A DNA stretch of 64,000 bases from an uncultured Pelagibacteraceae bacterium (GTDB taxonomy: Bacteria; Pseudomonadota; Alphaproteobacteria; Pelagibacterales; Pelagibacteraceae). The notes below the pieces were generated by a model, which saw nothing but the letters and a program-made list of their open reading frames with translations, was not told where the DNA came from and did no database searches. Position numbers and translations under genes: made by a program. The stretch is taken from positions 1-64,000 of the forward strand of contig CACGUE010000005.1 in the NCBI GenBank assembly GCA_902576115.1. The letters are read 5' to 3'. Shown here piece after piece: positions 21,171 to 54,256 of this stretch (position 1 is its first letter; each line of letters opens with the position of its first letter).

Positions 21171-22106
21171 TTAGAACGCAAAAGTTAACACCATTTGATA
21201 ACCTTCTCTATCGTCTGAAGAAGTATTATTTACGTTGTCAACTGTGTGCATAGATACTGCAACACCCAATGATCCAATTGTATATGAAGCACCAATCGCC
21301 ATTGACTCTTGGTCATCAGATCCAACTTTCTCTAAAGTGTGTGAACCATAAGATACAGTTAAATCATCATTAACAGCATAAGATATACCAATACCTGTTG
21401 ATTCTACATCAGAAGAAGTTTCGTTGTCTTGCTCTGATTTTTGGATACCAACTGTTGCACCACCGATTGCATATTTAGCAAACAATGTGCTTTCATCAGA
21501 TTTAGTTCCAGTTGTTACTTCAACATCTCCTGTACCATAACCAACTGTTAATCCTTCCATTCCAGTGTAAGTTACACCGTAGTCAGAATAAGATACATCG
21601 TTAACATCATCATCAGCGTTTAGGTAAGTTAAAGTTAAGTTAAGACCTGACTCATGAGAGTAGTCGTATCTCCAAGCATTATTACCTGAATGACCATTGA
21701 CTATTCCTGTGTCAGCACCTGTGATAACATCCCATGGCTCTTCTGAAGCAGTTGGCATTACATCGTCATTACCACTTAAGAATGTTGATCCACCATGACC
21801 ATCAAATCTTAAAACTCCAGCATCACCGAAGTCCATAGCAATTGAGTAGTTGTCAACACCACCTGTTGATGTGTCAGCTCCATCTAACTCTACGCTGTAA
21901 GTTACTGTGAAGTCATTTACATCTCCTGAAGCAGAAAATGCAACTGCATCACTTAATACCCAACCATTACCATGTGTTGCTTTTTCATCACCACCGGTAT
22001 AAGTCATTGTAGCACTACCAGATACTGACATTTCAGCAGCTGAAACAGATCCAGCAACTAAAGAACCAGCAAGAGCTGTTAGCCCTATTTTTTTATATTT
22101 GTTCAT
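21171..22106 (-). CDS. Porin-like outer-membrane beta-barrel protein
   Basis: Signal peptide MNKYKKIGLTALAGSLVAGSVSAAE; alternating beta-strand repeats, terminal aromatic (LTFAF); SD AAGGAG upstream. Confidence 0.88.
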   Translation of the reverse strand: MNKYKKIGLTALAGSLVAGSVSAAEMSVSGSATMTYTGGDEKATHGNGWVLSDAVAFSASGDVNDFTVTYSVELDGADTSTGGVDNYSIAMDFGDAGVLRFDGHGGSTFLSGNDDVMPTASEEPWDVITGADTGIVNGHSGNNAWRYDYSHESGLNLTLTYLNADDDVNDVSYSDYGVTYTGMEGLTVGYGTGDVEVTTGTKSDESTLFAKYAIGGATVGIQKSEQDNETSSDVESTGIGISYAVNDDLTVSYGSHTLEKVGSDDQESMAIGASYTIGSLGVAVSMHTVDNVNNTSSDDREGYQMVLTFAF

Positions 22107-49460: not shown

Positions 49461-52400
49461 TTACTTAATATCTTCTTTTGAAATTTTACACGTTTCAATT
49501 ATTAGATTATTAAGCATTGAATCTCTTTTTCTAATATTATTTTCATTTTTGTAAATAGAGTCTCTTTTTTTTGAGTGCTTCTCAATCTCATTAAAAAGAA
49601 TCTTTTGGTCTTTGTTTGGTATGGGTAACTCCAAATTGTAAATTAGAGAAGGTTTAATGGTTGGATACCCTTGGTCAGCCTCTTTTAAATTGCTGGTCTT
49701 AAAATATTTCAAAAAATCATAAATAAACATTCTTATTTTTTCATCATTAATATAAATTCCCGTTAGATGTTGAACAACATAAGAATCGTTTTTTAAAATC
49801 CCTATATTGTTAGTATTAATTGCCTGTCCACTTGTAGGAAACAATATAGTGCCTGATTTAAATTTTTTTAAATTATATTTTTTTAAAGCTATGTCGGTTA
49901 AACAATCATCATTCTTAGTTTTAATAAAGCCATTATCATCAATATTATTAAGGTCTTTTGCTCTCACGAATTGATATTTTCCGTTAATAAAATATTCATC
50001 TTCAGGAGCTGAACTTCCTTTCTCAATTTCAATTTTTAAATTATTTATTTTACTATTATTTAGATTTTTAATTTTTATTTTTTCATAACTTGAAATTATA
50101 TTGATTGGCTCCTTTATTATCAATTTATAGTCAAAATCTAAAGTGTCAAATTTTATTAAATCAGATATTTTTTTTATTTTTAGATAATTTTTAATATTAG
50201 GATTTATATTCTTATAATTTTTATTATTTTCAAATTTATTCAAAATATAAGAATTAATTTTACTTTTATCTAAAAGATCTTCTTCATTGAATAGGCCATT
50301 GAAAAGTTTTCCATTTTTTTTGTAAATTTTGATACCTTCTTGGCCTCGTCTTTTTCTAAATTCGTAACCTAATAATCTCTTAGTTTTTTTATGATCTCCT
50401 AAGTCAGTATCAACAATTATTATGTCTTTATCTTTAATCCAATTAAAACATTGAATTTTATCATTTTCATTCTTTTTGATTTTATCAATTTTTTCTTGTC
50501 CACTCAGTTTATCGAAATTTTCATATTCTTTATAAAAAGCAAATATATCTAAATTATCAGGATCAATTTTTTGTAAAATATTTTGAAATTCTTTAGAATT
50601 TTTAATATTTGGATAAAATTCTTGTATATAATCTTTTGGATCTGTCGATAAAGAAATTTCTTTTTTTGACATAAACAATACACATGTTGATTGAGTAGAT
50701 TCCATAAAAGCTTCTGAGTTAAGCATCACAATTGATTGTAAATCAAAATTTTCTAATAAAATTCTTCTTGTTTCTTTATGTAAAGGACTATCGTTAATAA
50801 AAATTGAAGTTGGTATTATAATTCCTGCAACACCATATTTTGAAATTAATTGTTTTGTTCTTTCAATAAACAAACATTCAATTTCTTTGCTTTTATCAGA
50901 CAGAAATTTAAATAGATTAAAATCTTTTTTAGCATGAGGAAGAGAATTTTGAAATGATTGAACTGAAAATGGAGGGTTGGCGACTATTATATCAAAGTTT
51001 GAATTGTCTTGACTTTCCTCATTATTTTTTAATTTTTTCTTATAGACTTTTGATTTAAAAAAACTATCGAGACCATCGCAAGGAAAAATATTTGCGTCAC
51101 CGTCACCATTTAAAAAAGAGCTTATCTTAGTAGTTTTTGCTAACCTATAGTCCTTCTCTATACCATAAACATATTCTTTTGCCCAAAGATAATTATTTTT
51201 GTGTGAAACAAATTCGTCTCTTCCTCTTCGTCCACTTTTGATTATTTCAGCGTCAAATTTTGAAAAATACATATTAATTTCATCCATTATTTCTGTCAAA
51301 AAATGACCAGCTCCTGAGGAATAATCTATTACATAAGGAAAAAAATATATTTCTTCTTTTTCATTTTTTTTTTCAATTAATTTTTCTATAGGCAATGATT
51401 TGCAAATAAATCTTGCTAAAACAGTTGGAGTAAAAAATTGTCCTGCTTCTTGTTTTACACCATGGTTTAATAAACTTTCAAAAAAATCACCAACGTATTG
51501 ATGTTTTGAGCTGTAGTTAATTTGAAATTCTTGCAATAATTGCACAACTTGTTTTACAATATCAAAATTTTCAATAAAAGTTTCATCATTATAAACATCT
51601 TTAAAGTTAAAATTATTACTTAATTTAATTTTTATATCATCATAATCATTAGAGAATTTAAAAGTAGATACATCTATGTAATCTTTTAAACCCTTTGAGT
51701 ATAGTTCTTCCAATCTTAGTAAGAAAGATTTAGGATCATCGGTATCAGATTTCCATTGAAAATCTAAATCAGAGTCTTTACTTGCTGATTTTTTGTCTTC
51801 ATCTACAATTTTACAAATAAACAAGTTAAATATTTTGTTAAAAGCGTTTGATTTATCAGATATTACATTTCTTCTTAAAATTTCTGCAAACAAGTTGAAA
51901 ATGAACCCACCCTCAGTCTCATTTAAATTTTTTAAATCATTATATGTTAAATTTCCTTTATCACTTGAATACGGTTTAGCATTGTCTTCAAGTAATCCTT
52001 TTTTTTCAAAACTTTTATCCCAATCTTTGAAAGAGTCTTCATGGGATAATTTTTTCCACTCCTTTTTAACTCTAATAAAATCATAATTTCTAACAAGTTT
52101 ATCTTCTTTTAGTTTTGAGGTATAAAGTGATACAACTTTAACGTCAGGCTCTTGCCTCAAGTAGCTGAAGCTTTGGTCACCATCTTTTATTGTTAGCTCT
52201 TTTGCGCGAATATACTCTTTGCCAAAAGTTTTACACTCTATTATTAAATATGTTTTATTATTCTTTTTTACTAAAACATCACAATAGGACTTATATTGTC
52301 TTCCAAATTTATATTGTTTTTCAATCTCTATATCTTCAGGATTATAACCAATTTTAAGTAATTGGTTGATGCATTCTAAAACCACTAAATATTCATCTTT

Positions 52401-52565
52401 AGAATTAAGATCTAAAACGTTATTTCTATGAACTTTTATCTTATCACCATAATTTACTTTTAAGTTTTTAATAGATATTTCGTAATTGTTGTTATATTTT
52501 TTAATATATTTTCCATTAGTTGATTCAAAGTCTAATTTTAATATTAATTTTTCTTTTTCCATCAT
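49461..52565 (-). CDS. Single-chain restriction-modification protein (HsdR_N-like nuclease + N6-adenine methylase + type I S-like target recognition domain)
   Basis: N-term YCDVLVKKNNKTYLIIECK (PD-(D/E)xK-like), motif I DYSSGAGHFLTEIMDEI, motif IV VANPPFSVQSF, C-term GSSAPEDEYFINGKYQFVRAKDLNNI...KSGTILFPTSGQAI (HsdS-like); no helicase motifs seen. Confidence 0.86.
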   Translation of the reverse strand: MMEKEKLILKLDFESTNGKYIKKYNNNYEISIKNLKVNYGDKIKVHRNNVLDLNSKDEYLVVLECINQLLKIGYNPEDIEIEKQYKFGRQYKSYCDVLVKKNNKTYLIIECKTFGKEYIRAKELTIKDGDQSFSYLRQEPDVKVVSLYTSKLKEDKLVRNYDFIRVKKEWKKLSHEDSFKDWDKSFEKKGLLEDNAKPYSSDKGNLTYNDLKNLNETEGGFIFNLFAEILRRNVISDKSNAFNKIFNLFICKIVDEDKKSASKDSDLDFQWKSDTDDPKSFLLRLEELYSKGLKDYIDVSTFKFSNDYDDIKIKLSNNFNFKDVYNDETFIENFDIVKQVVQLLQEFQINYSSKHQYVGDFFESLLNHGVKQEAGQFFTPTVLARFICKSLPIEKLIEKKNEKEEIYFFPYVIDYSSGAGHFLTEIMDEINMYFSKFDAEIIKSGRRGRDEFVSHKNNYLWAKEYVYGIEKDYRLAKTTKISSFLNGDGDANIFPCDGLDSFFKSKVYKKKLKNNEESQDNSNFDIIVANPPFSVQSFQNSLPHAKKDFNLFKFLSDKSKEIECLFIERTKQLISKYGVAGIIIPTSIFINDSPLHKETRRILLENFDLQSIVMLNSEAFMESTQSTCVLFMSKKEISLSTDPKDYIQEFYPNIKNSKEFQNILQKIDPDNLDIFAFYKEYENFDKLSGQEKIDKIKKNENDKIQCFNWIKDKDIIIVDTDLGDHKKTKRLLGYEFRKRRGQEGIKIYKKNGKLFNGLFNEEDLLDKSKINSYILNKFENNKNYKNINPNIKNYLKIKKISDLIKFDTLDFDYKLIIKEPINIISSYEKIKIKNLNNSKINNLKIEIEKGSSAPEDEYFINGKYQFVRAKDLNNIDDNGFIKTKNDDCLTDIALKKYNLKKFKSGTILFPTSGQAINTNNIGILKNDSYVVQHLTGIYINDEKIRMFIYDFLKYFKTSNLKEADQGYPTIKPSLIYNLELPIPNKDQKILFNEIEKHSKKRDSIYKNENNIRKRDSMLNNLIIETCKISKEDIK

Positions 52566-52698: not shown

Positions 52699-52821
52699 AT
52701 TGATTATGTGAAAATATTAAATATTTGTTTTTTTAATTTTTATAATATAATTTTAAAATAGTCCTGATTTAGAAAATAACTCTACTTGCTAGGACTTTAA
52801 ACACAACGCTAAAGGAGGCAA

Positions 52822-52989
52822 ATGAAACTAATAATACAATCAATCAAAAACTATTTAAAATCTAAAAAGGATAGAGGATTAGAACCTGTATTCTTTGAAA
52901 AAATAGGTGATCAAAAAACATCAAGAGATCAGATGCGTAAAAATTTAATAAAAGCATTAGAGAAAAATGGTTGGACAATAAAAAAATAA
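52822..52989 (+). CDS. Unannotated small protein, 55 aa
   Basis: MKLIIQSIKNYLKSKKDRGLEPVFFEKIGDQKTSRDQMRKNLIKALEKNGWTIKK*; AAAGGAGG at 52811-52818 just upstream; TATAAT-like -10s at 52741-52751; below ORF-track cutoff. Confidence 0.65.
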   Translation: MKLIIQSIKNYLKSKKDRGLEPVFFEKIGDQKTSRDQMRKNLIKALEKNGWTIKK

Positions 52990-52990
52990 T

Positions 52991-54256
52991 TTACAATTTA
53001 CCAGGTAACCAGGTTGAGAATATTGGAAAGAGTATCATTAGTATTCCATAAATTATTCCAACGATTGTAAATAAAGGAACCTCTTTAAAAGCTTTGGCTG
53101 GATTTTCTTTGATCACACCTGCAGCTGTATAAATACCAACGCATACGGGGGGTGTAATCATTCCTATTCCGGCAAAGGCAACAAACACCACATAAAGATG
53201 AAGTAAGCTTTGGTTAAATGATAATGTAATTGCTGCAAAAATTGGAACAGTTAAATAAAATACAGGAACAATTTCAATAAACGTTCCAAGAATTAAACAT
53301 ATTGCTCCAAGCATTATCCAGAACAGATTTACACTCACACCTTTATCTGTGAAGAATGTAATAATTTTTTGAGGAGCCTGAGTGTAAGTTAAAACTACAC
53401 TTAAGAATGTTGCAGTTGCTATAATTGCAAAAATTACAGCTGTAATGATAGCTGTTTCCCTTAAACAACTCATCAAAGATGAAAAAGTAAGTTCACGGTA
53501 AATTAAAAATCCAATTAAAACTGCATATACTCCTGCAACAGCAGCTGATTCAGATGGAGTGAGTATACCTGCATAAATTCCACCCAAAATTATTACTGGA
53601 GTGATCAATGCTGGTAATGCAGCTACAAAAGAACTTATTCTTTCTTTTAATGATGCCTTGTCATCTGTTCTAATATGCCTGCATTTAAACAAAACTAGAA
53701 GGACCATCAAAACAAGTAGAACTAGGCCTGGAATAACTCCTGCAGCAAAAGTTTTTGAGACCGGAACATTAGTTAGAGCACTAAATAATATTGCTGCATT
53801 AGATGGAGGTATCAATGCCTCCAATAGAGCAGCTGAAGCGGCAAGGACAACAACAAAAGGGGTTGGATAACCTTGTTCAATCATCTTTGGCATCATGATA
53901 GTTCCTACTGCAGTAATTGCTGCAAGTATTGATCCACAAAAAGCTGCGAAGAAACCCATCGCAATTACCATTGCAACACCAAGGCCGCCTGGCCAATGAC
54001 CAACTAGTGTTGTTGTAAATTTAACTAATCTTGATGCAGCACCTCCTTTTAACATAGCCATTCCAGTAAAAATAAATAATGGAACGGCAATAAGAACATG
54101 TTTAGTTAATGCACCAAATGAAACTTGAATCAAAACTGACCAAGGTAAATTTAATCCTGCAATTGCAGCTAACGAACTTCCTAAACCAAAAACTAAAAAA
54201 ATCGGAACTGATATAACTAATGTAACAAGAGAAATAATAAAAGCCAATCCAAACAT
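52991..54256 (-). CDS. dctM: TRAP transporter large permease DctM
   Basis: Polytopic; PLFIFTGMAMLKGGAASRLVKFTTTLVGHWPGGLGVAMVIAMGFFAAFCGSILAAITAVGTIMMPKM. Confidence 0.96.
   Translation of the reverse strand: MFGLAFIISLVTLVISVPIFLVFGLGSSLAAIAGLNLPWSVLIQVSFGALTKHVLIAVPLFIFTGMAMLKGGAASRLVKFTTTLVGHWPGGLGVAMVIAMGFFAAFCGSILAAITAVGTIMMPKMIEQGYPTPFVVVLAASAALLEALIPPSNAAILFSALTNVPVSKTFAAGVIPGLVLLVLMVLLVLFKCRHIRTDDKASLKERISSFVAALPALITPVIILGGIYAGILTPSESAAVAGVYAVLIGFLIYRELTFSSLMSCLRETAIITAVIFAIIATATFLSVVLTYTQAPQKIITFFTDKGVSVNLFWIMLGAICLILGTFIEIVPVFYLTVPIFAAITLSFNQSLLHLYVVFVAFAGIGMITPPVCVGIYTAAGVIKENPAKAFKEVPLFTIVGIIYGILMILFPIFSTWLPGKL

Follow-up and report, generated by a model that had tools for sequence, protein, structure and literature searches.

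A SAM-II-type leader RNA is predicted to control a conserved microprotein gene bordering variable islands in Pelagibacteraceae

What does a 55-aa open reading frame that ends beside dctM in a SAR11 genome encode, and what is the role of the RNA leader in front of it? The window, that is the whole 64,000-nucleotide stretch analysed here, comes from an uncultured Pelagibacteraceae bacterium (GCA_902576115.1, contig CACGUE010000005.1, positions 1 to 64,000, forward strand; GTDB lineage Bacteria; Pseudomonadota; Alphaproteobacteria; Pelagibacterales; Pelagibacteraceae). A sequence-only reading had proposed a microprotein gene with a strong Shine-Dalgarno (SD) sequence and a possible structured leader. 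Our analysis makes it very probable that the locus is a self-contained module of ~250 bp, in which a promoter, a SAM-II-type riboswitch and the microprotein gene follow one another. Its features and the adjoining gene are as follows.

49461 to 52565, minus strand: type IIG restriction-methyltransferase between hisE and the riboswitch, divergent; context, outside the module (PADLOC REase_MTase_IIG, E=1.5e-143)
52741 to 52751, plus strand: overlapping -10-like boxes, TATAATATAAT (sequence; phasing in homologous leaders)
52758 to 52818, plus strand: predicted SAM-II-type riboswitch aptamer, putatively translational (Rfam RF00521, 23.6 bits; own model R1)
52760 to 52765, plus strand: P1 5' strand AGUCCU (Rfam SAM_alpha alignment; both-side changes at two P1 pairs)
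52766 to 52770, plus strand: GAUUU, putative third strand of the P2 triplex and SAM pocket (analogy with SAM-II/SAM-V; PMC6061858)
52780 to 52789, plus strand: pseudoknot P2 5' strand CUCU(AC)UUGC (leader alignment, pairing)
52791 to 52796, plus strand: P1 3' strand AGGACU (Rfam SAM_alpha alignment; both-side changes)
52808 to 52817, plus strand: pseudoknot P2 3' strand GCUAAAGGAG (overlaps the SD at 52811-52818; invariant in 42 leaders)
52822 to 52989, plus strand: microprotein gene, family A, 55 aa (homologues, dN/dS; strongly basic by composition)

Direct reading of the sequence recovered the 55-aa frame as it had been quoted, with its ATG at 52822 and a stop codon that ends at 52989; the stop of the convergent dctM starts at 52991, which leaves the 1-nt gap described before. 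The gene is single copy in the source genome according to the own-genome search. The homologues that the sequence-only reading had proposed to seek in relatives were found in 34 of 297 family genomes, in 67 of 399 genus genomes and in 37 of 297 order genomes, with two genera represented in the order search; among near-complete family genomes, about one fifth (27/127) carried one. The proposed dN/dS check gave a median pairwise value of 0.12 over 72 distinct microprotein sequences, and the differences between homologues lie mainly at third codon positions; because of both observations the frame is, judged by this pattern of change, a real protein-coding gene under purifying selection. Certain copies are decaying, with stops within the match in two genomes of the genus search.

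The inverted repeat pointed out earlier (AGTCCT at 52760-52765 and AGGACT at 52791-52796) is present and forms the P1 stem of the putative riboswitch, and the suspected structured leader proved to have a SAM-II-type aptamer architecture kept across the homologous leaders. We scanned 92 distinct homologue sequences, each comprising the open frame and the DNA ahead of it, for motifs: the CGCUAAAG[GA] core is present in 90, of which 87 hold the full core pattern and three do not, and two sequences showed neither pattern. By eye, the five leaders without the full pattern have the same architecture. Of these five, L073 and L124 have AAUUU in place of GAUUU, L030 has AAUUGC and a shorter loop, L146 has AUGCUAAAG and L138 has AAGCUAAAG; a further leader, L131, has CGAUUU in place of UGAUUU with AUUU kept. 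Alignment of 42 distinct leaders shows no variation in AUUU, UUGC, GCUAAAGGAG or the GUC/GAC cores of P1, and the G preceding AUUU is at least 90% conserved. The structure cells of these leaders are paired in 98.0% of cases, compared with 42-60% for slid versions, and both-side changes occur in 9 cells versus 2.5 in shuffles. P1, the hairpin for which a covariation check had been suggested, shows compensatory changes at two pairs (C-G to U-A and A-U to U-A). In P2, 99.7% of cells can pair, but the strands are so nearly invariant that the stem is supported by complementarity and cannot be supported by covariation. Thermodynamically, the hairpin is unexceptional by itself (z = -1.4); its support is, in terms of sequence, comparative. 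The ligand-pocket positions (the UUU third strand, UU, a bulged U and AAA) do not vary among the 42 leaders of the alignment and were covered elsewhere by the pattern scan only; on our reading, they would correspond to the triplex/ligand positions of SAM-V and SAM-II (PMC6061858).

Rfam returned one relevant match for the window leader, SAM_alpha (RF00521; 23.6 bits, E=0.0056), which lies under the curated gathering threshold of 36 bits. This cut-off has no discriminating power in SAR11, since the SAM-II leaders of SAR11 metX genes that we scored fall below it as well: in the positive control, SAM_alpha gave four of them 27-30 bits, a range to which the window leader comes close. The metX leader of L197 was matched by RF01726 in place of SAM_alpha, and two bhmT leaders scored 21-26 bits. 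We also built a covariance model, R1, from microprotein leaders only, which scores the window leader at 90 bits by construction, and ran it on 148 family genomes; 33 matches at 58-91 bits were followed by a gap, and eighteen match places were fetched and read. The lower matches, at about 26-37 bits, include leaders upstream of metX (L186, L188, L193, L197 and L199) and bhmT (L187 and L196), with genes named from sequence, and both genes are known SAM-II targets in SAR11 (PMC2704228, PMC5069961). Several of the weakest matches, at 24-29 bits, fall within other genes and seem to be due to chance. Because R1 finds the metX and bhmT leaders and the metX controls are also sub-threshold, we infer that the leader is an aptamer of the SAM-II type on a translational platform, which would bind SAM and act in the OFF direction at the level of translation.

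The leader shares with SAM-II RNAs (RF00521/RF01726; SAR11 metX and bhmT) the H-type pseudoknot and the GAUUU / UUGC / AAA / GCUAAA core, but differs from them in having its SD inside P2/P2a, with presumed translational action, an unrelated small protein as target and a sub-gathering Rfam score. Its target is a microprotein gene and not a methionine or SAM gene, so that a usual, though not strictly defining, SAM-II trait is lacking. SAM-V (RF01826) resembles it in being translational, in having the SD in a short P2a and in occurring in marine alphaproteobacteria (PMC6061858), but the window leader has no SAM-V match at E<=5, the own-genome search gave none at the locus, and the leader core follows SAM-II. 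SAM-V and RNAs of the glutamine/downstream-peptide type were rejected for want of any Rfam match in the leader. The leader may alternatively have an altered ligand specificity, as in the spermidine-binding switch derived from SAM-I (PMC10853860); that the target is not a methionine gene would fit this, but the pocket positions are unchanged.

The SD, AAAGGAGG, lies at 52811-52818 with the ATG 3 nt downstream, just as the sequence-only reading had it. Its 7-nt match beats all 65 ATG-started ORFs of at least 120 aa in the window, only one of which reaches 6 nt (at 22106, minus strand, 311 aa), in agreement with the remark that few other genes here have so strong an SD. The conclusion drawn from this, high expression, was dropped, as the aptamer reading puts the SD within the P2 3' strand. 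The overlapping TATAAT boxes are likewise present (52741-52746 and 52746-52751), and 65 of 88 leaders have a TATAAT-like box 4-14 nt upstream of P1, versus 18-23 leaders when three equally wide control windows are taken and about 27 when the sequences are shuffled. A consensus promoter scan with a -35 element found no promoter at the -10 boxes of the leader. The phased -10 box suggests a minimal unit of promoter, aptamer and ORF, with transcription starting at or near the P1 5' edge.

At high SAM, the leader RNA would fold into an H-type pseudoknot with GAUUU in the P2 groove, and the 3' strand GCUAAAGGAG would pair with CUCUACUUGC, hiding the SD; in the model drawn from the SAM-V structure, the triplex is stabilised by SAM and the SD is masked (PMC6061858). 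A drop in SAM would release the SD and allow the 55-aa basic protein to be made. Since the SD is the pseudoknot strand hidden when SAM is bound, expression is predicted at low SAM. In Ca. P. ubique, SAM-riboswitch genes are induced when sulfur is limiting (PMC5069961).

The genomic setting was studied in 80 module loci from genome contigs. The genes closest upstream differ between loci; downstream, the next gene is often a core one, and its distance from the module hardly changes within a given site. The cargo clusters c39, c52, c60 and c4 adjoin the module at different sites, and certain sites adjoin tRNA-Met or tmRNA. By its gene neighbourhoods, the module is an accessory element that occupies many sites on the chromosome, at the edge of variable islands that often hold defence genes, and it is apparently mobile. 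Cargo across the loci includes the type IIG enzyme of the window, a C5 methyltransferase, DrmA/DrmB, a Mokosh-like protein and a GajB-like UvrD helicase. The position next to a restriction-modification gene that had been noted therefore holds for this copy, in that the type IIG gene adjoins the module, but the enzyme is an example of variable island cargo and not a fixed partner. C5 methyltransferase genes were recognised by motif in 6 of 80 module loci and in 0 of 40 control windows; for methyltransferase-like motifs of any kind the counts are 14/80 and 3/40, two of the control matches looking like chance. The enrichment near the module, measured against controls that are not island-matched, is modest, with no fixed partnership. 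Relatives without the module at the window's site have a direct hisE-dctM junction, other cargo or a partial tRNA-like sequence. A part-tRNA-Met-like sequence abuts dctM on the left in L318, L321 and L325, where ARAGORN calls no complete tRNA. The hisE-dctM junction of L323 has at its end a stretch nearly identical to the final ~27 nt of the microprotein gene, which is read as a probable deletion remnant; the ORF tail as an att repeat was rejected, with no second copy found flanking islands. The product of c4 is a 110-aa protein encoded divergently from the module in 15 of the 80 loci (for example L060, L077, L120 and L343), and by coordinates c4 adjoins the leader in 8 genomes; as an obligate module partner it was rejected, since other genomes carry c4 without the module.

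Leaders of the same kind (71-86 bits with R1) also precede small ORFs of a second family, B, with a GGPxGP motif, in three genomes (loci L182, L183 and L184). In long forms, family A frames encode 77-78 aa and overlap a second small ORF downstream, and certain of these second ORFs may, on alignment, be related to family B: they share 22-24% identity with the first family B member, with E=5.5e-4 for one, and one second ORF is common to the A operon L022 and the B operon L184. Viral contigs were searched by pattern scan and R1. No exact SAR11-type leader was found in these viral sequences, only related aptamers, at 36-39 bits, and all but L200 of seven viral pattern matches look like chance within other sequence. 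SAM-II-like aptamers lie directly upstream of ArdC-domain genes at L200:2634-2689 and L283:7498-7554, whose products match Pfam ArdcN at 6e-10 and 6.5e-9; for the L200 aptamer, Rfam gives no SAM riboswitch match at E<=5. These regions look phage-like, with SSB-like and lysozyme-like ORFs by eye. The phage ArdC genes thus resemble the microprotein gene in the R1-type leader directly upstream, but their proteins, of 258 and 255 aa, have no noted similarity to the 55-aa protein. Related aptamers also precede small ORFs without an assigned family in L280, L221, L236 and L248. Weaker and shorter relatives, at 20-25 bits, occur in L209, L215, L262, L253, L281 and other viral contigs, and in L209, L262 and L253 the ORF that comes after them encodes 115-117 aa and begins like a signal peptide. 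In a literature search set mostly within non-subscription sources, SAM riboswitch, antirestriction and phage were joined only in an RNA-motif survey, where antirestriction belongs to a different motif.

The earlier remark that the protein belongs to no recognised family agrees with our searches of Pfam, NCBIfam, PHROGs and PDB, which gave no convincing relative and weak partial matches only (best PHROG match E=0.0027 over 14 residues). Membership of XisH was rejected on a weak partial match, and that of HicA on a match of 15 residues (E=0.056). A viral origin was also rejected, the viral contigs holding no relative and a phage collection giving two weak Microviridae matches (E=0.5-0.6). An AF2 model has two helices (2-17 and 35-48; pLDDT 79, with a low pTM of 0.45), and Foldseek against PDB found no significant match to it (best E=2.2).

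Our leading guess, tentative and somewhat short of probable, is that the microprotein is a SAM-starvation-induced, nucleic-acid-binding island factor, which would either restrain restriction when methylation fails or regulate the island; this ranks above a methionine-pathway factor. Under the first version, modification fails at low SAM and the microprotein restrains the resident restriction system, as a restriction-alleviation (anti-self-restriction) or anti-defence factor. The divergent type IIG enzyme of the window, the methyltransferase counts given above, the DISARM-like DrmA/DrmB, Mokosh-like and helicase genes beside other copies and the ArdC-type antirestriction proteins behind related aptamers on phage contigs are all in its favour, but the 4 kb around most copies hold no methyltransferase-like motif, SAR11 islands may hold defence genes generally, which the control windows do not match, and the protein lacks homology to known antirestriction proteins. 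Taken singly, this version is rather unlikely. The second, in which the protein would regulate the mobile island as a small DNA-binding factor, excisionase-like or repressor-like, with expression tied to SAM starvation, is unlikely when taken singly: it fits a basic protein of 55-78 aa, a gene at the island border beside core genes and in certain loci tRNA-Met or tmRNA, and cargo genes shared between sites, but only one copy, L343, had an integrase-like gene nearby in by-eye, not systematic, reading, the ORF tail has no second copy flanking islands, and no fold match was obtained.

A part in the sulfur- or methionine-limitation response, for example as an inhibitor of a SAM-consuming enzyme, is possible though doubtful. 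Ordinary SAM-II targets are methionine genes, and S-limited Ca. P. ubique induces SAM-riboswitch genes together with two small unknown genes (PMC5069961), whereas the microprotein gene is carried by only about one in five near-complete genomes, lies in accessory islands and has no methionine gene noted beside it. Compared by description, the small S-limitation-linked genes SAR11_1163/1164 are similar, but they are called unique to their species (PMC5069961). It is improbable that the microprotein is a toxin-like effector of abortive infection whose release would follow SAM depletion by a phage, with families A and B perhaps forming a pair; the two-ORF long forms with overlapping frames and the defence-island setting speak for it, but the short form has no consistent second downstream ORF in the 80 loci, and the HicA match is as short as stated above.

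What emerges, on the sequence evidence, is a known kind of RNA, SAM-II-type, with a new class of target, a conserved microprotein gene. It is conceivable, if doubtful, that mobile islands and phages adopted a compact SAM-II-type riboswitch as a SAM-depletion sensor for restriction and anti-restriction proteins (SAR11 microproteins and phage ArdC) rather than for methionine genes. SAM-II control would thereby reach beyond methionine genes to genes of mobile islands and phages, antirestriction genes included, and in the latter case would tie a metabolite pool to DNA defence. A conserved microprotein of one of the ocean's most abundant bacterial groups thus gains a testable regulator and a growth condition, low SAM or sulfur limitation.
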